Made by a program: the position numbers and the translations under genes | The notes under the pieces: model-generated | What the model saw: only the letters and a program-made list of their open reading frames with translations | What the model was told of the DNA's origin: nothing | Databases searched by the model: none | IMG/VR virus record: IMGVR_UViG_3300044814_000124 | Location: 1 to 23,513 of that record | Origin: a virus | Length of the DNA stretch: 23,513 bases | Reading direction: 5' to 3' (one strand) | In this document: positions 685 to 14,980 of the stretch, one piece after another | Position numbering within the stretch: the first letter of the stretch is position 1 | Layout: each line of letters starts with the position of its first letter

Positions 685-715
685 TAAGTGCTTGGTGTGC
701 TGTTGTGCTGTGGCA

Positions 716-749
716 AAAGGTCCCGGGTGCTGCCTCTCCCGGGACCTTT
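716..749. terminator. Bidirectional hairpin terminator between convergent genes
   Basis: A perfect 12-bp inverted repeat, AAAGGTCCCGGG at 716-727 and CCCGGGACCTTT at 738-749, encloses a 10-nt loop. The outer A/T pairs give a short U-run on either strand. It lies between the plus-strand ORF ending at 684 and the minus-strand lipoprotein ending at 759, so it can stop both transcripts. Confidence 0.85.
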
Positions 750-758
750 CGCATTCCT

Positions 759-1688
759 TTACTTGCCAGCGGTCGCAGGGACTGTCGGAGTGCCGACGTA
801 GAACGAGCACTTAGGACAGTTCGATGCCTCGTCCTGCAGCATCAGGGCGTAATAAGCATACGGGCCGTACAGCTTCTGGGCTGCGACTACCCGGGCCGCG
901 TTCGCCGTTGCCGCCTGCTCAGCGGCTACCTGCTTGTTGTAATTGGCGACGACGGACGGGTCGGCCGGGGTAACGTTGTTGACCACGACGGTCATCCGCG
1001 TGCACTTGCCCTGGCTGCTGCCCGAGCCGCAGAAAAATGAGTCCGGGGACTCGGTTTCGACGCCCAGCTGCGTGTCCAGGTTTGCCGCGATCAGGCCGGC
1101 CAGCTTGTCCCAGCTGCCCTGGTCCTGCCAGAGCGACGGGGTGAACTGCTGCACGGCGATCCGTGAGGCACGGTCGACGGCCGGCCCCATGTTTTCCAGC
1201 AGCATGTTCTCCCAGCCGGGAGTGGAGGAGTGCGCCGTGTTCGCGATGTCCGCGTTGCTCTGCGGATCGGTAGACGCGCAGCCGTACTTGAGGCAGAAGG
1301 GCAGGAAATTTTTCATGACGCTGTCGTTCTGGTTGGGGGTAAAGTACACCGACGTCCAGACATCGACTGGCATGCCCGGCGTGTTCCCCTGGGCGGCGGT
1401 GCGGACTGCGTACTCCGGTGCCTTCCGGTCGCCGCCAGTCGCCGCGGTGACGAAGTTGCGGTCGTTGCAGGGCCAGTACCAGGCGGTAGCGCCGTTGTCG
1501 ACCTGTACCTGCCCGCCCGGGTGAACGACGCTGGTAATGCCCTGCCCGCTGGAGCCGAAGCCCCCGTCGGTTGTCGCGGCGCACTCGGACAGTGCGGGAA
1601 CCGCCGTCGTACAGCCGGACAAGACCAGGGCACTTCCGATTGCGGTCGCTGCGAGGCCGGCGGCTGCCAGCCCGCGGATTCGGTTCAC
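759..1688 (-). CDS. Band-7/SPFH-like lipoprotein
   Basis: The 309-residue product starts with a classical lipoprotein signal peptide: basic MNRIRG, a hydrophobic Ala/Leu core and a lipobox ending LSGC, with the lipidated Cys at residue 26. The mature part has a strand-rich N-terminal half with YWPCNDRNF and a middle segment of the form GWENMLLENMGPAVDRASR, then FFCG and a KCTRMTVVVNNV strand. An Ala/Gln-rich helix and a C-terminal NCPKC pair follow. This matches, as I recall it, a family annotated as Band-7-like lipoproteins in Streptomyces phages. Function there is not established; surface lipoproteins from phages can block superinfection, which is inference here. The GTG start overlaps the upstream stop by 4 nt (GTGA), so translation is probably coupled. 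It is the last cistron of the reverse block. Confidence 0.7.
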   Translation of the reverse strand: MNRIRGLAAAGLAATAIGSALVLSGCTTAVPALSECAATTDGGFGSSGQGITSVVHPGGQVQVDNGATAWYWPCNDRNFVTAATGGDRKAPEYAVRTAAQGNTPGMPVDVWTSVYFTPNQNDSVMKNFLPFCLKYGCASTDPQSNADIANTAHSSTPGWENMLLENMGPAVDRASRIAVQQFTPSLWQDQGSWDKLAGLIAANLDTQLGVETESPDSFFCGSGSSQGKCTRMTVVVNNVTPADPSVVANYNKQVAAEQAATANAARVVAAQKLYGPYAYYALMLQDEASNCPKCSFYVGTPTVPATAGK

Positions 1689-1966
1689 GTGTCACTCTCT
1701 CGGTTGATTGCTTCCGTAACCGCCTCGTAGGCGTCTACGGCCTGCTTGCGCGTGTTCTCTTCGGCAAGCGGGTCTGAGATGGTGCTGGCCAGCGCATCAC
1801 GTGCGTCAGTCAGGATCTTCCTGGAGTGCTCGATCCGGTGCCGCTGCGCGTTAAACCGCCGGACCCAGGCGACTGTGACGAAGGTCCAGGCGGTAAGCAA
1901 GCCGATGACCAGTATCAGCCAGGGCAGCACCGGCATGAACGAGTTCAGGAAACTACTGCCTTGCAT
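1685..1966 (-). CDS. Single-pass membrane protein with cytoplasmic helix
   Basis: A 93-residue protein has one clear transmembrane segment at about residues 11-34 (VLPWLILVIGLLTAWTFVTV), followed by a basic stretch (RRFNAQRHR) that favours a cytoplasmic C-terminus. A long charged helix with coiled-coil character makes up the rest. It is preceded by an AGGAGAGG site and its start overlaps the end of the upstream gene by 14 nt; its stop overlaps the lipoprotein start. Being coupled to the lipoprotein suggests the two act together at the cell envelope. No family was recognised; weak LemA-like topology was considered but the sequence does not support it. Confidence 0.7.
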   Translation of the reverse strand: MQGSSFLNSFMPVLPWLILVIGLLTAWTFVTVAWVRRFNAQRHRIEHSRKILTDARDALASTISDPLAEENTRKQAVDAYEAVTEAINRESDT

Positions 1967-2144
1967 CTTCCTCTCCTGATTTCAGGGCGGCGTAGTCCAG
2001 GTAGAGGCCGGCCTCACTGAGCCGGCGCTGTGCCGTGGCCCGGTTGGGAGCGTAGATTACGCCGTCCACCCGGTACCGGTGCAGCACGGTCTGGCCGTCT
2101 GCGGCGATCACCGTCGCGGGCGCGTCCTGCGGGTTAGTGTTCAT
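1953..2144 (-). CDS. Small hypothetical protein
   Basis: This 63-residue protein has a beta-rich first half (ATVIAADGQTVLHRYRVDGV) and a helix (RATAQRRLSEAGLYLDYAAL). Its ATG overlaps the stop of the preceding cistron as ATGA, and its 3' end carries the ribosome binding site of the membrane protein that follows. Both junctions support it as a real member of the reverse operon. Family not recognised. Confidence 0.6.
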   Translation of the reverse strand: MNTNPQDAPATVIAADGQTVLHRYRVDGVIYAPNRATAQRRLSEAGLYLDYAALKSGEEDARQ

Positions 2145-2413
2145 TGCGGTCCTTCTTCGCTGGTGTCCTGCACGTATACCGGCAGCAGCTGCGCGATGCC
2201 GGGCAGGAACGGGTAGTTGCCGGGCAGTCGCAGCTGGTCGTAGATATTGACGTGCACGGGACTGGTACCCGGCTTGCCGAAGTAAATCAGCAGGTCGCCC
2301 GGCGCGTTAGCTAGCTCTTTCGGTGTGGCCTCACGCCAGATGGTGCCGTCGTCCGCGACGTGGCGAGTCGGCATGCCGTCCTGGTACGAGCCTTTGTACC
2401 CGGTAAATCTCAC
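2141..2413 (-). CDS. Small hypothetical protein
   Basis: I place the start at GTG 2413, giving 90 residues beginning MRFTGYKGSY. The frame is open further upstream (127 codons), but that extension would cover almost all of the small membrane-protein gene at 2415-2555 and reads as basic low-quality sequence. GTG 2413 lies 1 nt after that gene's stop and follows GGGGAGC. The protein is soluble-looking, with a WREATPKELANAPGDLLIYFG segment and proline-rich strands. No family recognised. Confidence 0.6.
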   Translation of the reverse strand: MRFTGYKGSYQDGMPTRHVADDGTIWREATPKELANAPGDLLIYFGKPGTSPVHVNIYDQLRLPGNYPFLPGIAQLLPVYVQDTSEEGPQ

Positions 2414-2414
2414 G

Positions 2415-2555
2415 TCAGATGCTCCCCAGGAACGTCCAGATACCGGATAGCCACTTGCCGACACTGTGGCCCGCGCCAGCCGGGTCGCTGCTGACGATAC
2501 GGAGCGCCGCGATAGCAATAGCACCCCAGATCAGGTACCTGGCCCACTTAGGCAT
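2415..2555 (-). CDS. 46-residue small membrane protein
   Basis: A 46-codon ORF starts at ATG 2555 after a good GGAGGA site. The product opens with a short basic-aromatic N-terminus (MPKWARY) and one hydrophobic helix (LIWGAIAIAALRIV). A short polar stretch and an amphipathic Trp-containing tail (VGKWLSGIWTFLGSI) follow. The stop is 1 nt before the next cistron's GTG, and the start overlaps the upstream gene's end by 8 nt. Its size and topology resemble the tiny membrane proteins common in actinophages; no specific function can be given. Confidence 0.6.
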   Translation of the reverse strand: MPKWARYLIWGAIAIAALRIVSSDPAGAGHSVGKWLSGIWTFLGSI

Positions 2556-2727
2556 CAGAATCCTCCAGCGCCTCGCGCCCTGCTTCTGTCAGCTGGTACG
2601 CGCCGCTAGTACCAGTTGGCTCGATCAGCCCTTTGGTTTCCAGGGCGTACACCCCGGGCAGGATCGCCGCCGCGTCCCAGATTCGCGGGCCGCTCTCGTA
2701 GCTGCGCAGCAGGTCCAGCTCGTTCAT
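2548..2727 (-). CDS. Small winged-helix-like protein
   Basis: The likely start is ATG 2727 (59 residues, MNELDLLRSYESG). It overlaps the upstream TGA as ATGA and follows AGAGGAA; a longer in-frame start at 2778 would intrude into the upstream gene. The C-terminal two thirds follow the recognition-helix plus wing pattern of winged-helix proteins: AALLPGVYALETKGLIE-like helix then GAYQLTEAGREALE. This hints at DNA binding and a regulatory role within the block. The fold call is pattern-based only. Confidence 0.55.
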   Translation of the reverse strand: MNELDLLRSYESGPRIWDAAAILPGVYALETKGLIEPTGTSGAYQLTEAGREALEDSDA

Positions 2728-2936
2728 GACTGGTATTCCTCTCTTGTCTTGCGGAAGTCGCGGAAGTGCTTCCCGCACAGGGTCAGTTCGCCCGCGCGGG
2801 TAAAGACGAGCCAGAGCGCGCTAACGCCCAGCCCGCACCCGTCACACAGCTCCAGCGTCTCCCAGCCGAGCCAGGTATCATCGGCCAGCGGAGAGGGCGC
2901 CGTTTCGGGAGCGCCGGTAACGGCACCTGTGATCAT
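2724..2936 (-). CDS. DUF7455-like small zinc-ribbon protein
   Basis: This 70-residue protein carries a CDGC pair, a hydrophobic strand (ALWLVFTRAGELTLC) and a CGKH pair near residues 31-56. The layout CxxC-strand-CxxH is that of DUF7455-type proteins, common in actinobacteria and their phages and likely to bind one zinc ion. Biological role unknown. Both ends overlap neighbouring cistrons as ATGA, indicating tight co-translation. Confidence 0.7.
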   Translation of the reverse strand: MITGAVTGAPETAPSPLADDTWLGWETLELCDGCGLGVSALWLVFTRAGELTLCGKHFRDFRKTREEYQS

Positions 2937-3136
2937 GGCTGTTCCCTCCCCAGTACGTCGACGAGCGCGTCAAGGACATCCTCGGGCCGCTTCTCCGCGA
3001 TCTTGAGAATGATTTTCAGCAGGTCTTCGTAGACCGGGAGATCCTCGCCTTCGAGCAGCAGGCGGATTTTCTGCTGCGTGTGCCGGTACGGTTTTCCCTT
3101 GTCCGGGTCGGGCGGGCCTGTGTAGCCACGGGCCAT
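2933..3136 (-). CDS. Small hypothetical protein
   Basis: A 67-residue, mainly helical and charged protein begins MARGYTGPPDPDKGKPYRHT and ends in a helix with LLKIILKIAEKRPEDVLDALVDVL. The start follows AAAGAGGTAA at a usable distance, and the stop overlaps the DUF7455-like gene as ATGA. The regular Leu/Ile spacing suggests a helical bundle or dimer. Family not recognised. Confidence 0.6.
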   Translation of the reverse strand: MARGYTGPPDPDKGKPYRHTQQKIRLLLEGEDLPVYEDLLKIILKIAEKRPEDVLDALVDVLGREQP

Positions 3137-3148
3137 GACGTTACCTCT

Positions 3149-3280
3149 TTACCTGGGCTTGTTGCACGATTCGCAGATGTGCTCATGATGTACACCGGGG
3201 AAGATCCACTCTCCGCACCCCTCTCCGCTGAGCCGGTCTGCTGCGACGCTACCGGGCATGTTCCCCATGATGCGCCGCAC
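3149..3280 (-). CDS. Tiny Cys-rich putative zinc protein
   Basis: An ORF of 43 codons from GTG 3280 (or 39 from ATG 3268) ends 12 nt before the next start. Its C-terminus reads CGEWIFPGVHHEHICESCNKPR, with three cysteines and three histidines in a zinc-ribbon-like arrangement, the last two in CxxC. No strong ribosome binding site is visible before either start, so the exact beginning is uncertain. The terminal Cys/His pattern and the fit between neighbours argue that it is real. Confidence 0.45.
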   Translation of the reverse strand: MRRIMGNMPGSVAADRLSGEGCGEWIFPGVHHEHICESCNKPR

Positions 3281-3316
3281 GGTCTTGGATCAGCCATCGC
3301 TACCCCCGCTGAGGGG

Positions 3317-3353
3317 GGTGCGGGAGCGGCACCGACCGCGCCGCTCCCGCACC
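3317..3353. other. Strong intercistronic stem-loop
   Basis: A perfect 14-bp inverted repeat (GGTGCGGGAGCGGC at 3317-3330, GCCGCTCCCGCACC at 3340-3353) has a 9-nt loop. It lies in the only sizeable gap of the reverse operon (3281-3446), where no gene is convincing. No U-run follows on either strand, so it is not a standard terminator; it could stabilise or partly attenuate the reverse transcript. Confidence 0.6.
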
Positions 3354-3446
3354 GGGGGAAGAGAGGGACCCAACCCCTTAAATCCCTTCCTCCCCCTGGG
3401 AAGATGCGGACTCCGGTTTTCCACGCCGGGGTGACCGCACCTGGGC

Positions 3447-3641
3447 TTAACTCGTTTCTTTCCACTCAGTAATGTCCCTGGCCTCGACCTCGGCGGACTG
3501 CTGGGTCTGCGGGCTTTCGTACCCGGCCAGGTCATCGACGGTCAGGTCGTCCGGGGTCATGCCGCCTGGTAGTTCGACCTCGGCCTCGTGATGCTCGAAG
3601 ACCTCGGTGTCCCAGCTGACCTTGTACTTGGTAAGAGACAT
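3447..3641 (-). CDS. Small acidic hypothetical protein
   Basis: A 64-residue acidic protein starts MSLTKYKVSWDTEVFEHHEAEVELPGG-like, a beta hairpin, then a loop with the DDLTVDDLAGYESP stretch, and ends VEARDITEW. It begins 2 nt after the DUF932 stop with no strong ribosome binding site, suggesting translational coupling to that gene. Family not recognised. The large hairpin at 3317-3353 lies just downstream. Confidence 0.6.
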   Translation of the reverse strand: MSLTKYKVSWDTEVFEHHEAEVELPGGMTPDDLTVDDLAGYESPQTQQSAEVEARDITEWKETS

Positions 3642-3643
3642 GG

Positions 3644-4735
3644 CTAGTTCGCCGCGACGAGCCTGGCGAGCTGGGCGGCCTTGGCCTTGAGGGGTTCCGC
3701 GCGCAGCAGCGACCGGTTCATCCTGGTTTCCCAGGTACGCGCCACACGAGCGTGGTCGAGGTACTCGCCCGCCGCGTTCACCAGCGCGTAGGCGGTGCCG
3801 CGGATGCCGGTGCCCTCTACTGTCGGCCCGTTCAGGAAGCCCAGCACCGCGGCGCGGGCCTCGGCGATGTTGGCGGCTACCCGGTCGGAGACCAGGCCGT
3901 CTGGCGGTGCGGGGATGAACTCGCGCAGGAACAGCTGCTCCTGCTCGGGCGTCACCTTGATGCCGAGCAGATCGGTCATCGCCGCGACGTACTCCTGCGT
4001 CTGGGTGCGGGCGTACATTAGCGCCTCCCGCGCCTCGCCCAGGCGGCCCTTCCAGTCGCTGCGGTGACTGAAGCTGTACACCGCGCCGGTGCGGTCGCCC
4101 TCAGCCTCAGCGGCAGAGAACGTGTTCCCGCAGACGATCCTGACCGTGGTCAGCCGGGCGGCACAGGATGCCTTCCCGTCATGAGAGCTGGTGAGTCCCA
4201 GGAACGGGAAGGTCATCGACCCGTCACCCGGCAGCGGGACCGGCTCGTCGATCCGGGCCAGCATCCACACCCTGCGGCCCCCGCCAAGGCAGCCGCCGGT
4301 CTCCAGCTTCACCAGGTCAGGCTCGACGTCCAGGATGGCCTGGATGATCTCGCCGAACGCGGAGTTGGGAATGATGTTGTAACTGTCCCGCTGGTAGGAC
4401 AGCGTGGCCAGGGTGTCGCTGCGGGCGATGCGCCGGAATTCCTTGTCGGTGCGCAGCGACCGCTCGTACAGGTCTGCCAGCGCGGCGGTGGTTTCGTCGA
4501 CGGTCTTCATCGACGAGTCGCGAACCAGCCGGGAGATCTCTTCCCTCAGCTGTGAATTAGTCATCAGCCGCTCGGCGGTCGGCACCGCGACGGGGTCCCA
4601 GCCTAGCCCGGAGAGCTTGCGCGCCTCGGCGAAACTTTGCGGGTAGTCTTCGGTGACGGTAGTGCGGTCCCCGGTTTCTGGCTTATGCCACGGCATTGCG
4701 CGTACTGAAAACATCTGTTCGATGTCGTGCGCCAT
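3644..4735 (-). CDS. DUF932 (TIGR03299-type) phage/plasmid protein
   Basis: The 363-residue product opens with MAHDIEQMFSVRAMPWH, the start typical of the TIGR03299 group of DUF932 proteins, where a near-N-terminal MFSVR and PWH are conserved. Other expected features are present: a glycine-rich CLGGGRRVWMLARI strand near the middle, a SSHDGKASCAARLTTVRIVC segment with NTFS, and a long helical C-terminal half. Members occur in phages, plasmids and mobile elements; their biochemical role is not established. The start follows AGGAGAAAA at good spacing. A TATACT element sits 34-39 nt upstream and a LexA-like box about 100 nt upstream, so this gene probably heads its own transcript, which continues into the smaller cistrons. 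Confidence 0.85.
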   Translation of the reverse strand: MAHDIEQMFSVRAMPWHKPETGDRTTVTEDYPQSFAEARKLSGLGWDPVAVPTAERLMTNSQLREEISRLVRDSSMKTVDETTAALADLYERSLRTDKEFRRIARSDTLATLSYQRDSYNIIPNSAFGEIIQAILDVEPDLVKLETGGCLGGGRRVWMLARIDEPVPLPGDGSMTFPFLGLTSSHDGKASCAARLTTVRIVCGNTFSAAEAEGDRTGAVYSFSHRSDWKGRLGEAREALMYARTQTQEYVAAMTDLLGIKVTPEQEQLFLREFIPAPPDGLVSDRVAANIAEARAAVLGFLNGPTVEGTGIRGTAYALVNAAGEYLDHARVARTWETRMNRSLLRAEPLKAKAAQLARLVAAN

Positions 4736-4768
4736 CTTGGTTTTCTCCTCGCGATTGGTGTATCAGTG

Positions 4769-4774
4769 AGTATA
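4769..4774 (-). promoter_or_regulatory. -10 element (TATACT) upstream of DUF932 gene
   Basis: On the minus strand TATACT fits the actinobacterial TANNNT -10 and would start transcription near 4762, about 27 nt before the ATG. No good -35 is present (AATGCA at 17-nt spacing). Two short inverted repeats, CCGGA/TCCGG at 4787-4801 and GTTAC/GTAAC at 4801-4816, lie just upstream and could bind regulators. Confidence 0.45.
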
Positions 4775-4826
4775 ACACCATAGCAGCCGGATGCATTCCG
4801 GTTACTCGCGGGTAACATAAGAGGAT

Positions 4827-4844
4827 TTTATAGAACAAGTGTTC
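4827..4844 (-). promoter_or_regulatory. LexA/SOS-box-like operator next to a -10-like hexamer
   Basis: GAACAAGTGTTC at 4833-4844 has the GAAC-N4-GTTC form of Gram-positive and actinobacterial LexA boxes. Read on the minus strand it abuts TATAAA (4827-4832), a good -10, so a bound repressor would cover this promoter of the DUF932 operon. A GAAC-N4-GTTC match is expected about 0.36 times by chance in a window this long, so the location in an AT-rich promoter gap is the main support. Confidence 0.5.
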
Positions 4845-4854
4845 GAGTAATAGC

Positions 4855-5052
4855 TTACGACCAGGCCGTGCAGTCGTGCCGGACCCGGTGCTTCGTGCAG
4901 GGCGGCGGAATTTCAGTGAGATGGAACGTATCCGGGGTAAACGGCGTCCGGGTCAGGGCACGCTGAAACGCGGACGTCTCATCGGGTGCCTCCAGGCCGA
5001 GGATTACCACCTGCCCGGCTGCTGACCGGAAGGTGACCTGCCAGTAGCTCAT
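4855..5052 (-). CDS. Small hypothetical protein
   Basis: This 65-residue protein starts MSYWQVTFRSAAGQVVILGLEAPDE-like with two strands and a helix (TSAFQRALTR), then a proline-rich stretch and a C-terminal CTKHRVRHDC pair with two Cys and two His. The Cys/His spacing (C-x7-C with H between) could bind a metal but is not a standard finger. Its ATG overlaps the upstream stop as ATGA. Family not recognised. Confidence 0.6.
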   Translation of the reverse strand: MSYWQVTFRSAAGQVVILGLEAPDETSAFQRALTRTPFTPDTFHLTEIPPPCTKHRVRHDCTAWS

Positions 5053-5234
5053 GTGTTGTGCAGTGCCACGTAGAACGGAAGTGCGACTGGCCAGAACAGG
5101 CCGACGGCAACAGCGACCACATGCCGGTCGAGGTCATCGTTCGTGTTGGAACTGACGGCTACGAACCGTGCGATCCCGCAGGCCGCGAACAGGTAGAAGA
5201 GAGGGACGGTGATTCCGAGAAGGGTTCCGAGCAT
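5049..5234 (-). CDS. Small two-helix membrane protein
   Basis: A 61-residue protein has two hydrophobic segments, about residues 4-26 (TLLGITVPLFYLFAACGIA) and 40-57 (VVAVAVGLFWPVALPFYVAL), joined by a polar acidic loop (SSNTNDDLDRH). It is most likely an inner-membrane hairpin. The start lacks a Shine-Dalgarno sequence, but a TACACT -10 ends 6 nt before the ATG, pointing to a leaderless message. The stop overlaps the next start as ATGA. Function unknown. Confidence 0.65.
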   Translation of the reverse strand: MLGTLLGITVPLFYLFAACGIARFVAVSSNTNDDLDRHVVAVAVGLFWPVALPFYVALHNT

Positions 5235-5240
5235 GCGCTA

Positions 5241-5246
5241 AGTGTA
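5241..5246 (-). promoter_or_regulatory. -10 element (TACACT) for a leaderless transcript
   Basis: TACACT on the minus strand lies 6 nt upstream of ATG 5234, exactly where a -10 would place the start of transcription on the A of the ATG. No ribosome binding site is present. No clear -35 was found. Confidence 0.4.
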
Positions 5247-5256
5247 TCAGCCGGTC

Positions 5257-6342
5257 TTACAATTCGTCGAGTGCGCGCAGCAGCCGCCTGGCGTTGCTGA
5301 CGAACGTCCGGTCCGCTACCGCGGCGCGGGCCAGCCGGGCCGCTTCCTCTCGCTCGGTGTCGTGTGCGAGCCACCAGCGAAGTTGCTCACTGGCGTCCTC
5401 GGGGGAGGTGAAGGTAGGCAGCATGTGCAGCAGCTTGTCTCCCTCGTCGCGCGGGTCGCGCAGGAACGGCAGCCCGCACGCGGCCATCTCTACCTCGCGC
5501 GGCCCCATCGCGATGGCGACGTCACCGGCGTGCTCGTCTTCGGACTCGCGCCGGTAGAAGTTGATGCCCATCCTGGAGCGGCGGTACAGGTCCGCGGTAT
5601 CAGTGTTGTGCACGCAGTCCGCGTCGACGAGCCCGGTCCCGATGTACGGCACGAGCGGGGAAGTCTCCGGGATTTTGCCCCAGTCATTGCCCGCCAGCAG
5701 GAAGTCGACTCCCTGGAAGTTCATCCGCTCGAAGAACTCAATGCGGGACTTGAACGCGGTGCCGATGAACGTCAGGTCGAGGGGGTCTTTCGCCGGTCTC
5801 TTTCGCGGGTAGTGCACGGCTGGCCGGTAAGCGTGCGGGACATACAAAGCGGGGATGCCGAGTTCGTCGTAGAGGTGCAGGTTAGCCGGGTCGTTGAGCA
5901 TGGTGAGGTCGGTAAACTGCGCCCGGGTCAGCTGCGCGTCTTCCTGGTACGGCGACTCGGTGTTCAGGAACACCACTTTATGGCCGCGCTTACGCACTAC
6001 TTCCAGCAGCCCGGCAGTGGTAAAGAAACCGCTGACGAAAAGCACCGTATCCGGCCAAAACGTGTACAGAGCGTGAGTGATTCCCTGCATAGCGAGAGTA
6101 AAGGCGCCTTCTTGGCTGAGAGCCTGGTGAACGACAGGCAGGCCAGCCTCGTCGCGGACCTCGTTACCGGACTTGTCGTACTGCATCATGAGGGCTTTCG
6201 AATAAAATATCAAACGATCGTTAAAGCCCCCTAAATTATAGAGAGCGACTTCGACGCCTGCTTCACGCAGCCCCTCGGCCCAGCCGGTGTAGACGTCATG
6301 AACCGAAAAATCCGGTCCCGGATGCACCAGTAGTACTCTCAT
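5257..6342 (-). CDS. Glycosyltransferase (CgeB-like, GT-B fold)
   Basis: The 361-residue product begins MRVLLVHPGPDFSVHDVYTGW, a Rossmann-type first strand with an acceptor loop, and has a central LTFIGTAFKSRIEFFERM segment (residues 190-207) that opens the second Rossmann domain. Near the end, PREVEMAACGLPFLRD (281-296) matches the donor-binding motif of CgeB-type glycosyltransferases (PF13524), followed by a helical tail with FVSNARRLLRAL. It should transfer a sugar from a nucleotide donor. The acceptor is unknown; glycosylation of virion proteins has been described in actinobacteriophages and would suit a gene next to tail genes. The start follows AAGGGATGGTGA. It is the first gene of the reverse block and is divergent from the HNH gene at 6457. 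Confidence 0.8.
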   Translation of the reverse strand: MRVLLVHPGPDFSVHDVYTGWAEGLREAGVEVALYNLGGFNDRLIFYSKALMMQYDKSGNEVRDEAGLPVVHQALSQEGAFTLAMQGITHALYTFWPDTVLFVSGFFTTAGLLEVVRKRGHKVVFLNTESPYQEDAQLTRAQFTDLTMLNDPANLHLYDELGIPALYVPHAYRPAVHYPRKRPAKDPLDLTFIGTAFKSRIEFFERMNFQGVDFLLAGNDWGKIPETSPLVPYIGTGLVDADCVHNTDTADLYRRSRMGINFYRRESEDEHAGDVAIAMGPREVEMAACGLPFLRDPRDEGDKLLHMLPTFTSPEDASEQLRWWLAHDTEREEAARLARAAVADRTFVSNARRLLRALDEL

Positions 6343-6364
6343 ATAACAATATCACCATCCCTTC

Positions 6365-6394
6365 TTGTGACGCAACTTCGCGAAATGATATTCT
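6365..6394 (+). promoter_or_regulatory. Sigma-70-type promoter for the plus-strand HNH gene
   Basis: TTGTGA at 6365-6370 and TATTCT at 6389-6394 are separated by 18 nt. This is the best -35/-10 pair seen in the window. It lies in the AT-richer gap between the divergent glycosyltransferase and HNH genes and would start transcription near 6401, about 55 nt upstream of the HNH start. Confidence 0.5.
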
Positions 6395-6401
6395 TTAGCG
6401 A

Positions 6402-6432
6402 CCCGGTCATGCTGTTCAGGGCAGCGACCGGG
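6402..6432 (+). other. Leader inverted repeat before the HNH gene
   Basis: CCCGGTC at 6402-6408 is complementary to GACCGGG at 6426-6432, with a 17-nt loop. It starts almost at the predicted transcription start, so it would form a 5' leader hairpin in the HNH mRNA. Confidence 0.4.
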
Positions 6433-6456
6433 CCTGACCGCAAATGAGGTGCGGCT

Positions 6457-7071
6457 GTGACTGATCCTACCGAACGTTGGAAGCCCGTCAAGAACTTCGA
6501 AGGTGCTTACGAAGTCAGCAGCGAAGGCCGGGTACGGAGTGTTGACCGTACGATAACTTCTCGTAACCGGTGGGGGCTGATGAAGAAGCGCCTGCGCGGT
6601 AAGGTACTCGCGCAGAACACCGACAACTACGGCTATCAAAGGGTCAATCTGTTCAAAAATGGTAAAAGTAAACCCTACCGGGTGCACCTACTCGTCGGGG
6701 AAGCTTTCCTCGGGCAGCGCTCGCCAGGACATGATATCCGGCACGGTCCGAAGGGACGCAAGGCCAACGCAGCTGCAGATCTCTGTTACGGAACGCGTGC
6801 CGAAAACGAGCAGGATAAGATCCGTGACGGTTCGTTCCGGCATGGCGGCGACGGTCGTTCCGGTGAGGCCGCTAGCCACCACAAGCTGACCTGGGTTATC
6901 GCCCGGGAGATCCGGCGCAGGCGTGCGGCGGGTGAACGCGGTAGTGACCTGGCTCGTGAGTTCGATGTCAGCTCGACGACGATTTACTACATAGCAACAA
7001 ACAGGCAGTGGAAGACTGAGCACGATCCGGGGAGGGTTATACTGGGAGAGACGCCACACCAGGGTGGCTAA
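6457..7071 (+). CDS. NUMOD4/HNH homing endonuclease
   Basis: The 204-residue protein has three parts. An N-terminal NUMOD4 module (residues 5-35) shows W-KPV-FEGAYEVSSEGRVRSVDR. A HNH nuclease (75-115) has the first His in RVHLLVGEAF (H77), a second in IRHGPKG (H96), the central Asn in KAN (N104) and the closing YGTRAEN. A C-terminal helix-turn-helix (142-188) reads KLTWVIAREIRRRRAAG...LAREFDVSSTTIYYI. The layout is that of free-standing homing endonucleases in phages, which cut intronless or empty alleles and spread by repair. The GTG start follows GAGGTG. Key residues look intact. It lies convergent to a related gene at 7456-8076. Confidence 0.85.
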   Translation: MTDPTERWKPVKNFEGAYEVSSEGRVRSVDRTITSRNRWGLMKKRLRGKVLAQNTDNYGYQRVNLFKNGKSKPYRVHLLVGEAFLGQRSPGHDIRHGPKGRKANAAADLCYGTRAENEQDKIRDGSFRHGGDGRSGEAASHHKLTWVIAREIRRRRAAGERGSDLAREFDVSSTTIYYIATNRQWKTEHDPGRVILGETPHQGG

Positions 7072-7119
7072 CCAAGCCTTACCGTAGTGACTAGCCACGC
7101 CACGTCCACTCTTACCTCA

Positions 7120-7458
7120 CCGACTAGTCATCCCTTTGCAGGCCTACCCTCGCCGCACCGACGACCCCTTCCCCGTCGCTTCATCCCGTCCCCGTTCACG
7201 CCGACTACCCTGCCCACCCCGCACCAATTCGACCCTCACCGACTTGCCAAATCTCACCCTCCCGGACCCTGCCGACTACCCACCCCAGTCCCGCCCGATC
7301 CTGTCCGACAAGTCACCCCGACCCGCGACTGCCCCTCCCGGACCCTGCCGACTTGCCACGCCTGCACTTACCGGGTCGTCCCAGCCCCCTCCGACTAACC
7401 TGTCCCGCCCAGGCCCCGCCGACTGCCCGCCTCCACCCTGCTCATCCCGGACCGACTA
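7120..7458. repeat. C-rich CCGACT repeat array between convergent HNH genes
   Basis: The gene-free stretch 7072-7455 holds an irregular array of CCGACT hexamers, often extended as CCGACTA or CCGACTT. Copies start at 7120, 7201, 7239, 7272, 7348, 7391, 7419 and 7452, with variants at 7305 and 7325. A 21-nt exact repeat occurs at 7257-7277 and 7333-7353. The plus strand is G-poor: 6 G against 31 C in 7201-7260 and 11 G against 32 C in 7261-7320. The last copy overlaps the stop codon of the minus HNH gene. Plus-strand ORFs here are proline-rich artefacts of the composition. Function unknown. Confidence 0.7.
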
Positions 7459-8076
7459 TCCTCGCCACCGCTTCTCAGCACCTTGACGTCCGTACTCCCG
7501 GCGGCGCTGCCGCATGTCTGGCGTGCTGATCAGTGATCGCCCGTCGATTTCCGGATCAGGGATGCCGTCGGCCAGATGTGCCCAGGTCTTGCCATGAATG
7601 GCGTTGCTCATGGCTCCCGAGGTGACACCAAACTCGGCGGCCAGGGCGACCTGCGTCTCACCCGCGGCATAACGGCGACGGCACTCCAGGACGATGGCTT
7701 CCGTCAGCTTAGCCCGTACGCTCCGTTCACCCTGGTTGCTAGTGCCGTCCCGCACCCGGTCCGCGCCCTGATTCCGGCTGCGCGTTCCCCATGACAAGTT
7801 ACCCAGGCTGTCGTCAAGCTGGCCGCCTGGGCCGTGGCAGGCCTCCTGTCCTGACGGGCGCGGACTGGCAAACGTTTCCAGAACCAGGTTGCTAATCCGG
7901 TAGAACTTCACTTTTCCGTACTTGGACAGCCCGACTTGCCGGTAGCCCTTCGTAGAGAGCTGCGGCTTCAGAACTTTCCCACGTGTGGTTGCCCGTGGCA
8001 GCGATGAGACGCGCCCGTAATTTGATACCTCGTACCAGCCCTGGTAACCGGGTACAGGTAGCCATCGTTCCTCCAC
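7456..8076 (-). CDS. NUMOD4/HNH endonuclease paralogue, active site altered
   Basis: The 206-residue protein shares the layout of the gene at 6457: NUMOD4 (residues 3-28, WLPVPGYQGWYEVSNYGRVSSL), HNH region (58-105, ending NLSWGTRSRN) and helix-turn-helix (122-168). The canonical first His of the HNH core is replaced by Ser 62 (YRISNLVLETF against YRVHLLVGEAF in the neighbour), and the expected Asn in the CHGPGGQLDD stretch is Asp 89. Cutting activity may therefore be lost or reduced. The GTG start has no separate leader: TATAAT lies 6 nt upstream. It points away from the intron-bearing major tail gene, whose start is 137 nt away. Confidence 0.8.
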   Translation of the reverse strand: MEERWLPVPGYQGWYEVSNYGRVSSLPRATTRGKVLKPQLSTKGYRQVGLSKYGKVKFYRISNLVLETFASPRPSGQEACHGPGGQLDDSLGNLSWGTRSRNQGADRVRDGTSNQGERSVRAKLTEAIVLECRRRYAAGETQVALAAEFGVTSGAMSNAIHGKTWAHLADGIPDPEIDGRSLISTPDMRQRRREYGRQGAEKRWRG

Positions 8077-8082
8077 GTATCA

Positions 8083-8088
8083 ATTATA
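8083..8088 (-). promoter_or_regulatory. Consensus -10 (TATAAT) of a leaderless HNH transcript
   Basis: TATAAT on the minus strand ends 6 nt before GTG 8076, placing the transcription start at the start codon. The -35 region is weak. The absence of a spaced Shine-Dalgarno sequence fits leaderless initiation, common in actinobacteria. Confidence 0.5.
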
Positions 8089-8177
8089 TGCCATTCACGT
8101 GCGGACAGGCTACCTAATAAGCTAGACTGCCGTTAGCAACGTATGGCCGCGGCCCTAGCCGATGCGACCGGAGCCGG

Positions 8178-8202
8178 CCTCCTCGTAACAAAAGTGAGGA
8201 GG
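8178..8202 (+). promoter_or_regulatory. Hairpin covering the ribosome binding site of the major tail gene
   Basis: CCTCCTC at 8178-8184 pairs perfectly with GAGGAGG at 8196-8202, loop 11 nt. GAGGAGG is the Shine-Dalgarno sequence of the major tail protein (ATG 8214). In the folded leader the site would be hidden, so translation could be switched or delayed. Confidence 0.5.
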
Positions 8203-8213
8203 TGAGCTGTAGA

Positions 8214-8978
8214 ATGTCCCGTATTCACGGTCAGCTCCCGGCCGCCTGACAGAGTGATCTGTTAGTGAAAACCGCGAGAATTGCTGGAAAGCCCGAGTCA
8301 CCTGGCCCCACCACAACGTGGCGTGAAAACGCGAGCGTGACGGTTCGAGAAGTGGCCAGCAGGGGTAATCAGCAGCCGAGCCCGCCTGGTTCGTCCGACG
8401 GGAAGGTTCAGAGACTATGTACGCGGCACCCCACGCGGGTGAAGATAGAGTCCGGACTGCGCAGAGATGCGCAGAGGCTAGCAGAAATGACTAGCCCGCT
8501 TGCCTCCACCACGGGGGGCGGGTAGTAACAAGATCGAGGAACGGTATCGCGTACGTCGCGGTTACTGGCAACGGCACCTTCGCAACAACTGATGTCGCTA
8601 GCCCCATGGCATTCCTTTTAGCTCAGCGACTGGAGTATAAATTTCGTCGTAAACAAGGTTGACGTCACCGCGATGGGTGACCAGAACCTGATCTGGGTAG
8701 CGGGCCTGCCGGACGCGTCTGGTGACTTCACCGGGTTCTATGACACCGCGTCCGCGCAGACATATGTCAGCGCCACCGACGGCCTGCCGCGCAGTTTCTA
8801 CCTCTACCCGTCAACCATCGCGAACCAGGTAGGGCCTCCCGGTCAGTACTTCTTCGGCCAGATCCTGCCTGACTACGCGATTTCCGGCGGTGTTACCGCG
8901 GCGGTCTCGCTCAAATCTACCTGGAATGCAGCCTCACGTATTCAGAGGTATCCTTCCGTCGGTCTCGCCGGCACCTGA
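8214..8978 (+). CDS. Major tail protein, split by a group I intron; frame break in exon 2
   Basis: Exon 1 (8214-8231) encodes MSRIHG after GAGGAGGTGA. Removing the intron 8232-8536 joins it to RNGIAYVAVTGNGTF..., restoring the MSRIHGRNG start usual for this family. Downstream, LSDWSINFVVNKVDVTAMGD, GLPDASGDFTGFYD, FYLYP, GQYFFGQILPDYAISGGV and a late SLKSTWNAAS are hallmarks of actinophage major tail proteins, which polymerise into the tail tube. About 152 residues would result, a normal length. However, the first part of exon 2 (8537-8620) and the rest (8622-8978) are in different frames: ASPMAFLL continues as AQRLEYKF, whereas LSDWSINF needs a +1 shift. ATG 8673 is inside the family's conserved region and is not a credible start. 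The break may be a sequencing error, recoding or a real mutation. Confidence 0.8.
8232..8536 (+). ncRNA. Group I self-splicing intron in the major tail gene
   Basis: The 305-nt element has all conserved core parts in order: P (AATTGCTGGAAAGCCC, from 8279), Q (AATCAGCAGCCGAGCC, from 8367), R (GTTCAGAGACTA, 8406-8417) and S (AAGATAGAGTCC, 8442-8453). Pairings fit: P3 CCGCG 8272-8276 with CGCGG 8422-8426; P4 TGCTG 8282-8286 with CAGCA 8370-8374; P5 8292-8294 with 8363-8365; P8 CACCC 8427-8431 with GGGTG 8437-8441; a peripheral CTGGCC/GGCCAG stem. P9-side hairpins lie at 8457-8474 (GAGA tetraloop) and 8476-8496. P1 pairs exon CGGU (8228-8231) with 8241-8244, giving the expected U-G at the 5' site. 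The 3' site is placed after G8536. No ORF lies inside. Exact splice sites are inferred from the restored protein. Confidence 0.9.
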
Positions 8979-10255: not shown

Positions 10256-13200
10256 GTGGCTAGGGATCTCGGGACAGCCTTCGTAGGCATTGTTCCCGAT
10301 ACCGGTGGCTTCCGGGCCAAGCTAATCGCCCAGCTTAAGGCAGCGATGGCCCGGGTCAGCGGTGATGTACCCATTGGCGCGGACGCCGCGAAACTAAATG
10401 CGGCCATCGCTGCGGCGCAGGCGAAAATAGCGACGCTGACCTCCAAGACATCAGACCTGCAGCTGGACGCTAACACCACGGCACTTGTCGCTAAGATCGC
10501 CGCGCTGCAGGCCCAGATAGCGCACCTGGGCGAAGCGATGTCGAAGATGACCGCGGACGTGGATATCCACGCGGCGGCGACCAAGATCCTTGCCCTTGAC
10601 GCGCAGGTCGCGGTGCTGAAGGACGCGGCAACTAAAATCAGGCTCGACGCGGACATCACCGCGATGACCGCTAAGCTCGCGCTGGCCAAGGCGGAAGTAA
10701 AGACGGTCGGTGATACCGCGACTACCGGGGGGACCCGGGCGTTCGGGCCGTGGTTCAACTTGTGGAGCCTGATCGGCCGTAAGGTTACCTTGTTCGGCGG
10801 CGCGTTCGGCACGACCGGCATCCTGGCCAGCGTCGGCGTGATCCACCTGCTCGCCCAGGGCATCCTGGAGGTCGGTGCGGTCGTCATCCCGGCCGCGGTC
10901 GCGCTGGGGGCGTTCGGAATCGCGGCTGCCTCAACGGTGAGCGATATCGTAAAGTCTGAACAGGCGATGCTTACGGTTACCACGGCCCTGGGGGGATCGT
11001 TCCCCGGGCTGACCGACGGGCTGCAGCATTTCACGGACTCGGTGAAGCCGCAGGTGTACATCTTGTTCGGCGAGGCGCTGAACACGATCAACGCCCATGC
11101 CGGGCTGTTCCAGCAGCTCGCTACCGGCGCCGGCCGGGTGCTCGACAGCCTGGGTGCACGGGCGGAGAACGCCCTCGGCGGCAACGGGCTGAACGGCCTG
11201 GTGTCCAAGGGCGTCGCGGACCTGCAGCTGCTCGGTGACATCATCGCTAACGTATTCGGGATTTTCGGGAACGTACTGAAGGTGCTGCCCGGGTACGCCC
11301 AGCTGCTCTTCTCCGCGCTGCGGGACGTGACCGGGGCGCTGGAGGCGATTACCGGCAGCTCCGCCGCGCAGGATCTACTCGGCATCGGGCTGGCCATGCA
11401 CGGGGCCGTCTTGTACGGCGGCCTGCTCGTTACCGCCCTCCTGCTCCTGCGCGGGCCGATTACCGCGCTGGGCAGCTTGTTTGTCACAGCGGGGCTGGCG
11501 CTAGCCGCTTACGTCGAGTCGGTTATCGTCGCCGAGGGCGCGACCGCCACATTCGCGGCGATCCTCGCGCCGCTGGCGCTGGTTAACCCGTTTGTCTGGG
11601 TGGCAGCGGGGATCGGGCTGCTGGTCGGCCTGGCCATCTGGCTCGGTAACGTCAAGACGGCAGCGCGGCAGGCCTATGACGCGATCATTTCGCAGGTGAA
11701 CGCGTCAACGACGTTCACCTCAGCGAATACGGCCCTCGCGCAGGGGCTCCAGCAGACGAACGAGCAGCTGAAGAACACGCCGAAGTACATCACGGTAACG
11801 ACCGTGGGAATGCACGGCCAGATGAGTACCATCAGGGAGCTGAACTCGCAGTACACCGGGCTGACGGATAACCAGAAGAACCTTTCCGCCACCCAGGTGA
11901 CATTGAACAGTCGCATGGCGGAGCTGACCAAGATCACCGGCAGCCAGTCGAGCGCCCTGGCTGACCTGAACTCCATCGGGGTGAAGGCGGGAGCGGTAGC
12001 CACCGAGTCGGACGCCGCGTTCAAGAGCCAGGTGACCCAGATCCAGGCGCTCGTTACCGCGGAGACGCAACTGGCCGGGTTCACCGGGGGTCCGGCTCTC
12101 GCGGCGCAGAACGCGCTGACCAACGTGTTCCTGAACGAGCAGCTGCCCGCCATCCAGAAGGTCGTCCAGGCCGAGGGCAACTTGCTCAGCGTGATCACCG
12201 GCGGCCAGGTCGCGTTCAACAACTTCCAGCAGTCGATTCAGGGCACGACGGCCAAGTTTGTCAGCCCCAGTGGCCTGGCGGACGCGGCAACGCTGGCCAA
12301 GGGCAACCTGTCCGGGCTGAACCAGCAGTCCCTGGCGTTCTCTAACACGCTGTACAACCAGAGCATCCCGGCGGCGCAGAAGCTGATCGGCTCGCTGCAG
12401 GAACAGAACATCAGCCAGAAGAACCTGACCACGGTGGTCGCTACCGCCGCCGGGCAGATGACCGCCTACACCGGCAAGAACACCGAGGCCAACTCGGTTA
12501 TCGTCTCGCTGATCAATAACGCGCTCGGCCCCGGCACGGTCAGCCTGAAGACGCTGAAAACCTGGGTGGACAACAACAGCACGTCGATGACCGGGTTCAG
12601 CTCAATCATCGCGGCGTCCACCATCAAGGCCGGCACGCTGGCGAACGTGCTGCAGACGCAGCTGACCGCGCAGTTCCAGGCCGACCTGCTCGCCAGCTCG
12701 GGCGCTACCGCCCAGATGAAGCTCTGGACTGACGCGATCACCAACGGGACCTCGCAGACGTCGGCCGGCAAGGCGACTCGTGACACGCTGATCGCCGACC
12801 TGGAGAAGACCGGGATGAGCGCCACCGCCGCCAAGACGCTCGTGGACAACATGCAGAAGTCCATCGACGCGATGAAGGGAAAGACGGTCGCGGTCGGCGT
12901 AGTCGGCAGCGGGTCAGGCACGATCACGTTCGCGGAACAGAACATCAAGAACGCGCAGACCGGCCTACTGGAGTTTCACGCGGCGGGCGGCCGGGTCGGC
13001 ACCGGAACCGGCACCAGGGACGATTACCCGGCGATGCTGACCCGGGGCGAAGTCGTCGTCCCGGTGGGCATGGTCAAGGCGGGCGCGGTCGATCACCTGC
13101 GCGGCAAGCTGCCCGGTTTCGCCAGTGGCGGCCTGGTCGGCCCGTACGGCGTGCTGTCCGGGGTCGGGCAGGACTTCATGGGCTCGGCGATGAGCCAGGC

Positions 13201-14980
13201 GGCTAAATCCGTCGAGGGGACGGCCGCAGCGCTGATGATCGCGGACATGAAGGCGAAGATCGCCGCGGCCCAGGCTGCGGCGGCGGCAGCGGCTACCAAG
13301 GCGGCGGCGGCCTTTACCGGATCGGGCGGCGCCAGCGGCGGGATTATCCAGTCGATGATGCAGCAGATGGCTGCCGCCCGCGGCTGGACCGGTGCGGAAT
13401 GGAGTGCGCTCGCCGCGGTCGAGAACCGCGAGGCCGGCTGGTCCATGACGGCGCAGAACCCCACAAGCGGCGCTTACGGCCTTGCCCAGTTCATTAACGG
13501 GCCGAGCGAGTATGCCCAGTACGGGGGAAATTCGACCACCGCACAGGGTCAGATTACCGGAATGCTGAATTATATTGCACAAAGGTACGGCGACCCGATT
13601 GCCGCCTGGAATCATGAGGCCAGTTTCGGCTGGTATAACCAGGGCGGCATGATTCCGGGATTCGCCAGCGGCGGGCTAGCGGGCAGCCTGGCGGCCGGGC
13701 AGGGAACTGAACGGAATGCCTTCAGCAGCGTACGGAGTGCCGTTGCCTCGGCGCTCTCGCACCCGAGTGCGTTCGTCAAGGCGAACAAGGCGTCTATCAC
13801 CAGTGAGCTGGGCACGCTGACTAAGCGGCAGGCGGCCGAGCAGACCGCTTACGCGCGCCTGGCCGGGAAGGGCCTGACCAGCGGGAACCTGTCAAAGCTA
13901 GACACGACGCTGCGCGAGGAGCTGCTGACCGACCAGGACAAGCGCATCGGCACGGCGGTTCCCGGGCCGGTTGCGAGCCTCGCCGGCGCCCTGAACGCAC
14001 TGAAGGCGGTTGCCACTGCCGGGGCACCAGCGGTCGCCGCCGCGGCCAAGGCGGCGGGTGCTACCACAACGGCAGCCAAGGCGGGTGCCAGCCAGCCGGC
14101 GGCGGGCGCTACCACTATGGCGCGGCTGGGCCAGCAGGAGCAGGCCGAGCAAGGTGACTTCGGTGCGCTGAGCAGTGCGATTACCTCGGCCCTCGCCAAC
14201 CCGAGCGCGTGGCTGAAGACGAACAAGACCTCGGTAACAAACGAGCTGGGCACCATCACCAAGCGCCAGCAGGCCGAGGTGGCTGCTTACGCGGCGCTGG
14301 CCGGGAAAGGACTGACCGCCGCGAACCTGTCTAAGTTCGGCACGGCCGCCCGCGCGGAGATCCTCACCACCGCCGACAAGGGGCTGAGCACTGCCGCGGG
14401 CGGCCCGGACAAGACCCTGGCCGCGGCCCTGGCCGTGCTGAGCAACTCCGCCAAGGCGGGGGTTATCCCGTCGGTTCCCGTCGCCACCGCCGTTAAGGCA
14501 GCGGCCTCGCACGCGGCGGCCACCACGAGCGAGGGCTCAGTACCGACCAGCGTCCTGTCTGAGTCGCAGTACACCGCGGACCTGTCGGCCGTGCACGGGC
14601 TGTCCATGGCGGATATCCGCGGGAACGCGCACCTGACGCACCTGTGGCACTTGCTGCACCTGCAGCACCTGGCGGATACCGGGCTCAGCCAGGGCGGGAA
14701 GGTCGGCGGCCTGGCGATGGTCCCGCGGCTCGTGCACGACGCCGGCGGCTGGATTCCGCCCGGGGTCAGCATGTCGGTTAACCGGACCGGCCAGTACGAG
14801 CAGGTGACCCCGCCCGGCGGCGGCAGCACCCGGAAGCTGAGCGCGGACGCGCAGGCGATCGTCGACGCGCTACGGGAGAACACCGCGGCTGTCCAGGGGA
14901 CGCCGCATGCCTTCGCCGGGGCGCTCAACTCGACGTCCACCGCTGCGGCCTACCGCGGCTCGTACTCGGCGAGGCGGTAG
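10256..14980 (+). CDS. Tape measure protein with lysozyme-like domain
   Basis: At 1574 residues this is the largest gene; it sets tail length and is ejected with DNA. The N-terminus has Ala/Leu coiled-coil repeats (about 40-155), then hydrophobic stretches at about 179-226 and 381-465. A DDYPAMLTRGEVVVP segment near 922-936 is typical of tape measures. A lysozyme/transglycosylase-like domain lies at about 1027-1128: VENREAGW with likely catalytic Glu 1059, then NPTSGAYGLAQF and QRYGDPIAAWNHE, for local peptidoglycan opening during entry. After it come GFASGGL linkers, a duplicated 95-residue module (1155-1249 and 1301-1396), and a run of five HLx triplets near 1459-1473. At about 1.5 angstrom per residue the tail would be near 230 nm. 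The GTG start follows AGGCGG. Confidence 0.9.
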   Translation: MARDLGTAFVGIVPDTGGFRAKLIAQLKAAMARVSGDVPIGADAAKLNAAIAAAQAKIATLTSKTSDLQLDANTTALVAKIAALQAQIAHLGEAMSKMTADVDIHAAATKILALDAQVAVLKDAATKIRLDADITAMTAKLALAKAEVKTVGDTATTGGTRAFGPWFNLWSLIGRKVTLFGGAFGTTGILASVGVIHLLAQGILEVGAVVIPAAVALGAFGIAAASTVSDIVKSEQAMLTVTTALGGSFPGLTDGLQHFTDSVKPQVYILFGEALNTINAHAGLFQQLATGAGRVLDSLGARAENALGGNGLNGLVSKGVADLQLLGDIIANVFGIFGNVLKVLPGYAQLLFSALRDVTGALEAITGSSAAQDLLGIGLAMHGAVLYGGLLVTALLLLRGPITALGSLFVTAGLALAAYVESVIVAEGATATFAAILAPLALVNPFVWVAAGIGLLVGLAIWLGNVKTAARQAYDAIISQVNASTTFTSANTALAQGLQQTNEQLKNTPKYITVTTVGMHGQMSTIRELNSQYTGLTDNQKNLSATQVTLNSRMAELTKITGSQSSALADLNSIGVKAGAVATESDAAFKSQVTQIQALVTAETQLAGFTGGPALAAQNALTNVFLNEQLPAIQKVVQAEGNLLSVITGGQVAFNNFQQSIQGTTAKFVSPSGLADAATLAKGNLSGLNQQSLAFSNTLYNQSIPAAQKLIGSLQEQNISQKNLTTVVATAAGQMTAYTGKNTEANSVIVSLINNALGPGTVSLKTLKTWVDNNSTSMTGFSSIIAASTIKAGTLANVLQTQLTAQFQADLLASSGATAQMKLWTDAITNGTSQTSAGKATRDTLIADLEKTGMSATAAKTLVDNMQKSIDAMKGKTVAVGVVGSGSGTITFAEQNIKNAQTGLLEFHAAGGRVGTGTGTRDDYPAMLTRGEVVVPVGMVKAGAVDHLRGKLPGFASGGLVGPYGVLSGVGQDFMGSAMSQAAKSVEGTAAALMIADMKAKIAAAQAAAAAAATKAAAAFTGSGGASGGIIQSMMQQMAAARGWTGAEWSALAAVENREAGWSMTAQNPTSGAYGLAQFINGPSEYAQYGGNSTTAQGQITGMLNYIAQRYGDPIAAWNHEASFGWYNQGGMIPGFASGGLAGSLAAGQGTERNAFSSVRSAVASALSHPSAFVKANKASITSELGTLTKRQAAEQTAYARLAGKGLTSGNLSKLDTTLREELLTDQDKRIGTAVPGPVASLAGALNALKAVATAGAPAVAAAAKAAGATTTAAKAGASQPAAGATTMARLGQQEQAEQGDFGALSSAITSALANPSAWLKTNKTSVTNELGTITKRQQAEVAAYAALAGKGLTAANLSKFGTAARAEILTTADKGLSTAAGGPDKTLAAALAVLSNSAKAGVIPSVPVATAVKAAASHAAATTSEGSVPTSVLSESQYTADLSAVHGLSMADIRGNAHLTHLWHLLHLQHLADTGLSQGGKVGGLAMVPRLVHDAGGWIPPGVSMSVNRTGQYEQVTPPGGGSTRKLSADAQAIVDALRENTAAVQGTPHAFAGALNSTSTAAAYRGSYSARR
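13718..14441 (+). repeat. Duplicated 95-residue module in the tape measure gene
   Basis: Two copies (about 13718-14002 and 14156-14440) encode alignable helical modules. Shared landmarks are NPSAW/HPSAF, NELGTITKRQ/SELGTLTKRQ, AYAALAGKGLT/AYARLAGKGLT and NLSK. They are separated by an Ala/Thr-rich linker. This is a protein-level tandem duplication. Confidence 0.75.

Follow-up and report, generated by a model that had tools for sequence, protein, structure and literature searches.

The window, by which we mean the whole 23,513-nt stretch of DNA analysed here, is a complete 23.5-kb IMG/VR virus record from an uncultivated soil phage. Its gene order, a tail terminator gene (39–464), a tail gene and a gene of tape-measure size (10256–14980), fits the identity assigned to the tail gene, and all 18 aligned relatives of the encoded protein match the PHROG family 'major tail protein' (best E = 1.5e-10). 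The features at and around this gene are as follows.

6457–7071, + strand: second NUMOD4-HNH homing-endonuclease-like gene, with a 77% identical homologue in the related locus L002
7456–8076, − strand: free-standing NUMOD4-HNH homing-endonuclease-like gene (Pfam NUMOD4, 6e-17; PHROG HNH, 7e-39), with positional homologues in relatives
8214–8231, + strand: exon 1, which encodes MSRIHG and has U as its last base, at the 5' splice site; an AGGAGG-type ribosome-binding site lies ahead of it (from the sequence and the intronless alignment)
8232–8536, + strand: group I intron of 305 nt without an ORF (RF00028, 70.6 bits; family model R1, 318.9 bits; boundaries)
8247–8249, + strand: UGA stop 15 nt past the 5' splice site, in the reading frame of exon 1
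8537–8978, + strand: exon 2, with its stop codon at 8976–8978, in two frames owing to the insertion below
8615–8621, + strand: 7-nt frameshifting insertion, CTTTTAG, between MAF and LSDW, absent in aligned relatives (placement ambiguous by about 1 base)

Scanning both strands of the whole window against Rfam yielded a sole significant match, RF00028 (Intron_gpI), at 8222–8474 on the + strand, which spans the full model (1–253) with a score of 70.6 bits (E = 2.5e-16) against a gathering cut-off of 50 bits. The original prediction, made from the sequence alone, had placed a group I intron at 8232–8536 and had proposed this covariance-model search; its coordinates coincide with the natural splice boundaries, which lie between U8231 and C8232 and between G8536 and A8537. 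The last exon base is thus U and the last intron base, as set by alignment of the exons, is G, as is characteristic of group I introns. An 86-aa ORF within the intron (8265–8525) overlaps the ribozyme core and was taken as incidental.

Intronless relatives read straight through the insertion site

We identified 73 distinct loci encoding relatives of the joined tail protein, most of them uninterrupted. With the intron excised, the window message reads MSRIHG followed by RNGIAYVAVTGNGTFATTDVASPMAFL, so that the joined flanks encode MSRIHG-RNGIAYVAV... across a CACGGT + AGGAAC junction. The DNA of intronless relatives has CACGGx followed directly by AGGAACGG or by CGxAAyGG, and such empty sites are present in 40 distinct intronless relatives. 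Because these relatives run on uninterrupted, the objection that they might not join CGGT to AGGAAC falls away. Residues R3, H5, G6, R7, N8 and G9 are invariant in the alignment of relatives, and the intron therefore lies within the most conserved N-terminal stretch of the protein. The proposals that the element interrupts a major tail protein gene after codon 6, that it does so within the most conserved N-terminal codons, and that alignment with intronless homologues would reveal the junction, are each borne out by these comparisons.

Searches of an annotated phage collection with the DNA and the tail protein recovered no relative, neither the tail protein nor the 18-member alignment recovered a confirmed relative from GTDB genome contigs, and a search of solved structures with the tail-protein profile gave no match. 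For annotation, the locus carries a warning, in that automatic gene calling would split the tail gene or lose its start.

Covariation supports a complete group I core

All of the helices P1, P2, P3, P4, P5, P6, P7, P8, P9 and P9.1 could be placed on the window intron, the following at these positions.

8228–8244, + strand: P1, exon CGGU and intron C (8228–8232) paired with the internal guide sequence GGCCG (8240–8244), with a U8231·G8241 wobble at the splice site
Within 8272–8426, + strand: P3 (8272–8276/8422–8426) and P4 (8282–8286/8370–8374), from Rfam and covariation
Within 8272–8426, + strand: P5 (8292–8294/8362–8364), with the extension P5a–c, and P6 (8381–8384/8399–8402)
Within 8413–8452, + strand: P7, the guanosine-binding helix, GACUAU/AGAGUC (8413–8418/8447–8452), with one mismatch, A8417·G8448
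Within 8413–8452, + strand: P8 (8427–8431/8437–8441)
8457–8496, + strand: P9 (8457–8463/8468–8474) and P9.1 (8476–8481/8491–8496)

The structure derived from the window, P1 to P9.1 including the P3/P7 pseudoknot, was scored on a MAFFT alignment of 21 related introns. Standard pairs occupied 96.0% of pair cells, compared with 33–41% when the partners were slid, and 40 of the 66 pairs showed changes on both sides; none of 500 shuffles attained such values. Covariation takes in P3, P7 and P9, and in P7 a U-A pair is replaced by C-G in seven rows. The mutually consistent core pairings claimed by the original prediction are accordingly upheld, and the P3–P8 core is conserved apart from one P7 mismatch: the A8417/G8448 pair is mismatched in the window alone, the other 20 rows having no mismatch at that pair. 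This mismatch counts against the main reading of the window element given below.

Relatives of the window intron are known to splice

The covariance model R1, which was built from 11 introns, recovers members of the family by the dozen from IMG/VR loci. It also recovers the introns of the mycobacteriophages Baka (51.5 bits) and LittleE (44.2 bits), both of which have been shown by RT-PCR to be spliced (PMC3706429), and the 3' end that it assigns in Baka, at record position 28,450, is the published 3' end (PMC3706429). By analogy, the recovery of these two introns is the best evidence at hand that the family splices. The Cluster J introns (Baka minor tail gene, LittleE capsid gene) are likewise of group I and interrupt genes for structural proteins in actinobacterial phages (PMC3706429), share with the window intron a U before the splice site and a G at the end, and have a P7–P9 stretch in common with the window family (79% over about 58 nt); the Baka intron, like that of the window, is also without an endonuclease gene. 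They differ in the genes that they occupy and in a P3–P6 core of another subtype.

A Baka-like P3–P6 core is present, too, in an intron of locus L053 that occupies the same insertion site as the one in the window. There, an intron at 3872–4141 combines the guide region and P9 end of the window family with a P3–P6 core like that of Baka and LittleE; it scores 95 bits with R1, was missed by Rfam, and looks as though introns at a single site had exchanged cores. Just 5' of the tail gene in the window, the sequence GTAACAAAAGTG (8185–8196) is identical to the 3' terminus of introns of this family, for example that of L075; it may be what is left of another intron, or a chance match.

Taken together, these data make it very probable that in this uncultivated, high-GC phage the major tail (tail-tube) gene is interrupted at 8232–8536 by a mobile group I intron without an ORF. 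That there is instead no intron, and that a structured regulatory RNA was inserted near the start codon, is extremely improbable; the element does stand just after the start codon and the leader fold is stable (z −2.87), but such an RNA is at odds with the complete ribozyme core, the match between guide and exon, the terminal G, the empty sites and the homologues of proven splicing. A separate idea, that the leader fold masks the ribosome-binding site, was dropped; the leader sequences of relatives have no such fold.

From the fold, boundaries and empty sites, all of which we observe, we infer the catalysis. The intron RNA would fold so that its guide GCCG keeps CGGU of the exon in place at the 5' splice site. 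Two guanosine-initiated transesterifications would then cut the intron out precisely behind codon 6 and leave CACGGU joined to AGGAAC. Guanosine-dependent splicing of the window intron is thus a prediction, which accords with the splicing of its Baka and LittleE relatives in vivo (PMC3706429).

In-frame stops lie close behind the 5' splice site

Most group I introns carry a stop codon that bars ribosomes (reviewed in PMC3073962). The reading phase could be set for 16 introns, and in every one of them a stop in frame with exon 1 occurs 0–22 nt past the 5' splice site, compared with a median of 89 nt for the other frames. A UGA homologous to that of the window is present in 12 of the introns and is in frame in all 12, even though its spacing from the splice site is 9, 12, 13, 15, 18 or 19 nt, and this holds also for two introns that lie in a different phase. 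That the stop is kept in frame despite varied spacing and phase suggests selection in translated, spliced messages, with the proviso that the introns are related and the cases are not all independent. In the window, the UGA observed 15 nt past the 5' splice site would halt ribosomes on the unspliced message and thereby keep them off the ribozyme core.

The window copy carries a frameshift in its downstream exon

At the position of the 7-nt insertion (8615–8621) aligned relatives read MAFL-SDW, and a search of IMG/VR for the exact pattern of the insertion found none. As a consequence of the extra bases, the spliced window frame is shifted after codon 33 and stops at about 48 residues. Excision leaves an open frame encoding the full-length tail protein in nine of the ten intron-bearing genes, the window being the exception. 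As assembled, the spliced gene would therefore specify no complete tail protein, owing to the insertion in the downstream exon. The original prediction had envisaged a splice-dependent structural gene; interruption of the gene by an intron stands, but a working gene of this kind is not supported for the window copy because the frameshift ends the spliced frame.

The frame 3' of the insertion is open to the stop codon, and its substitution rates relative to L002 (dN 0.15, dS 1.78) point to purifying selection. Since this downstream frame is still conserved, the damage should be recent, artefactual or recoded, and the frameshift together with the P7 mismatch leaves decay, recoding and misassembly as possible readings of the window copy. 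That it is decaying, such that a genuine intron, perhaps weak or dead, sits in a tail pseudogene of a phage or prophage remnant, is possible but on the doubtful side. The frameshift is unique among aligned relatives, the P7 mismatch is unique among the 21 introns, and the branch that ends in the window is longer than that of L002 (0.13 versus 0.05); decay is, however, hard to square with the open and evidently selected frame beyond the frameshift and with the intact state of other tail genes, including a 1574-aa ORF. An assembly or strain-mixing error, in which case the spliced tail gene of the real phage is intact, is a real possibility that stops short of being probable. It is favored by the strength of purifying selection on the downstream frame, by the lack of the insertion in any relative and by the apparent integrity of the remaining late operon, although assembly errors seldom take the form of a clean 7-nt insertion. 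Recoding, finally, is very improbable: a ribosome hop from CUU (8615–8617) to the cognate CUC (8622–8624) would give exactly the conserved MAFL-SDW junction, a +1 shift is another way in which the tail protein might be made, and the frames on both flanks are conserved, yet no relative shares the insertion, a conserved recoding signal was not found, and a simple mutation or error is the better account.

Related introns occupy six sites in one gene

Irrespective of the state of the window copy, introns related to it occur at six positions of the tail gene family.

After codon 6: introns in the window, L053, L065, L081, L090 and L127
After codon 9: intron in L083
Before a conserved W: intron in L093
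Between FV and V: intron in L060
Between KV and D: intron in L062
Between MG and D: second intron of L065, which thus has two introns in one gene

At all six sites a guide tetramer base-pairs with the four bases that end the exon, five tetramers (GCCG, GTCG, GCGA, GCCT and GCCC) serving different exons, and the U·G wobble is kept in 13 of 13 introns examined. The codon-6 and codon-9 sites have a common target, ACGGU, and the same guide sequence. Intron presence is patchy on the tail-protein tree (eight changes, of which at least six are forced by well-supported branches). A tree of intron cores by site was largely unresolved and did not recover site A as one clade; a pattern search for site A returned 37 stretches, most of them unrelated, and gained L127.

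The family thus appears to have spread repeatedly to the codon-6 site and to neighboring sites of the same gene, either through insertion guided by a guide match of 4–6 nt or through homing by the neighboring free-standing HNH endonucleases. The divergent HNH gene at 7456–8076, whose start codon lies 137 nt upstream of the tail gene, is a candidate partner for intron mobility. Of the 10 intron-bearing lineages, 7 have an HNH homologue no more than 1.7 kb upstream of the tail gene, compared with 10 of the 40 that lack an intron (Fisher p = 0.02), though paired comparisons on the tree were without power. The expectation of homing put forward in the original prediction is hence plausible given the patchy distribution and the nearby HNH genes, while the nominal association of HNH genes with introns was not significant once independent pairs on the tree were compared.

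Collaborative homing, in which the adjacent NUMOD4-HNH enzyme would cut intronless tail genes in the insertion region and carry the intron along, is plausible by analogy, though we would not call it probable. In its favor, an ORF-less intron lies beside a free-standing HNH gene not only in the window but also in L053, L060, L062, L065 and L093, an arrangement with precedents in T7-like phages and in a cyanophage (PMC3984707, PMC10448857). On the other side, the HNH gene also adjoins intronless tail genes in at least eight lineages, in L090 and L127 no HNH gene was detected close to the intron, the phylogenetic pairs have no power to support it, and six intron sites do not suit one fixed cleavage site. 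Judged from the sequences, six retargeted sites would be better explained by reverse splicing than by a single cleavage site. Even so, it is rather unlikely, if worth entertaining, that a single family of introns without endonucleases moves by reverse splicing, time and again, to new positions within the same structural genes of phages, with the guide re-matched to 4–6 nt of each new exon. If true, such spread would be the source of the six tail-gene sites, two of them only 9 nt apart (target ACGGU), and would also account for related genes with five introns and exons of under 90 nt.

The region between the tail terminator and the tail gene (700–8100, about 7 kb) holds mostly reverse-strand genes, among them glycosyltransferase-like and DUF932 genes, a lipoprotein-like ORF and the two HNH genes; homologues of these genes lie near the tail gene in several relatives.

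Comparison with other phage introns

Introns in phage structural genes, including the tail-tube gene of Twort and the genes of Cluster J mycobacteriophages, are already known. In Staphylococcus phage Twort, orf142 (Landthaler and Shub 1999, as cited in PMC11878797) resembles the window family in that a tail-tube protein gene has several group I introns; Twort is, however, a low-GC phage, and on the cited account the likeness extends to gene and intron class. The introns of the Bastillevirinae, whose splicing has been shown in vitro and in vivo, likewise occur several to a gene with a small internal exon, but they reside in replication, nucleotide-metabolism and packaging genes, average 802 nt and in many cases have embedded genes (PMC11878797). 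In the collaborative homing loci of T7-like phages and the cyanophage, an ORF-less group I intron also stands beside a free-standing homing endonuclease gene (PMC3984707, PMC10448857); there the endonuclease target at the insertion site has been demonstrated, whereas for the window enzyme such a target would be a prediction, and the window family differs in having several insertion sites.

What is new here is an unusually rich, multi-site intron family in one tail gene. It adds a natural series in which small introns, all close relatives, occupy six positions of a single short gene; every one has a guide that matches its own exon, many empty sites lie beside them, and the series is related to introns of proven splicing. 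The series makes it testable how introns that lack an endonuclease reach new sites, whether by reverse splicing or with borrowed endonucleases.

Five related group I introns were also seen in each of two other genes (L097, 2378–5283; L107, 115–3574), which probably belong to the major-capsid region; a piece of L097 matches phrog_13692 (E = 2e-37) and, weakly, SU10_MCP (E = 0.0017). The phage-intron literature that we consulted for comparison reports three introns per phage gene at most. By model boundaries, the internal exons include ones of about 38 and 50 nt in L097 and of 52 and 84 nt in L107. In L145 (616–1188, − strand) just about 29 nt of exon (ILLQEMMLG) stand between two family introns, and L103 has a similarly short exon.
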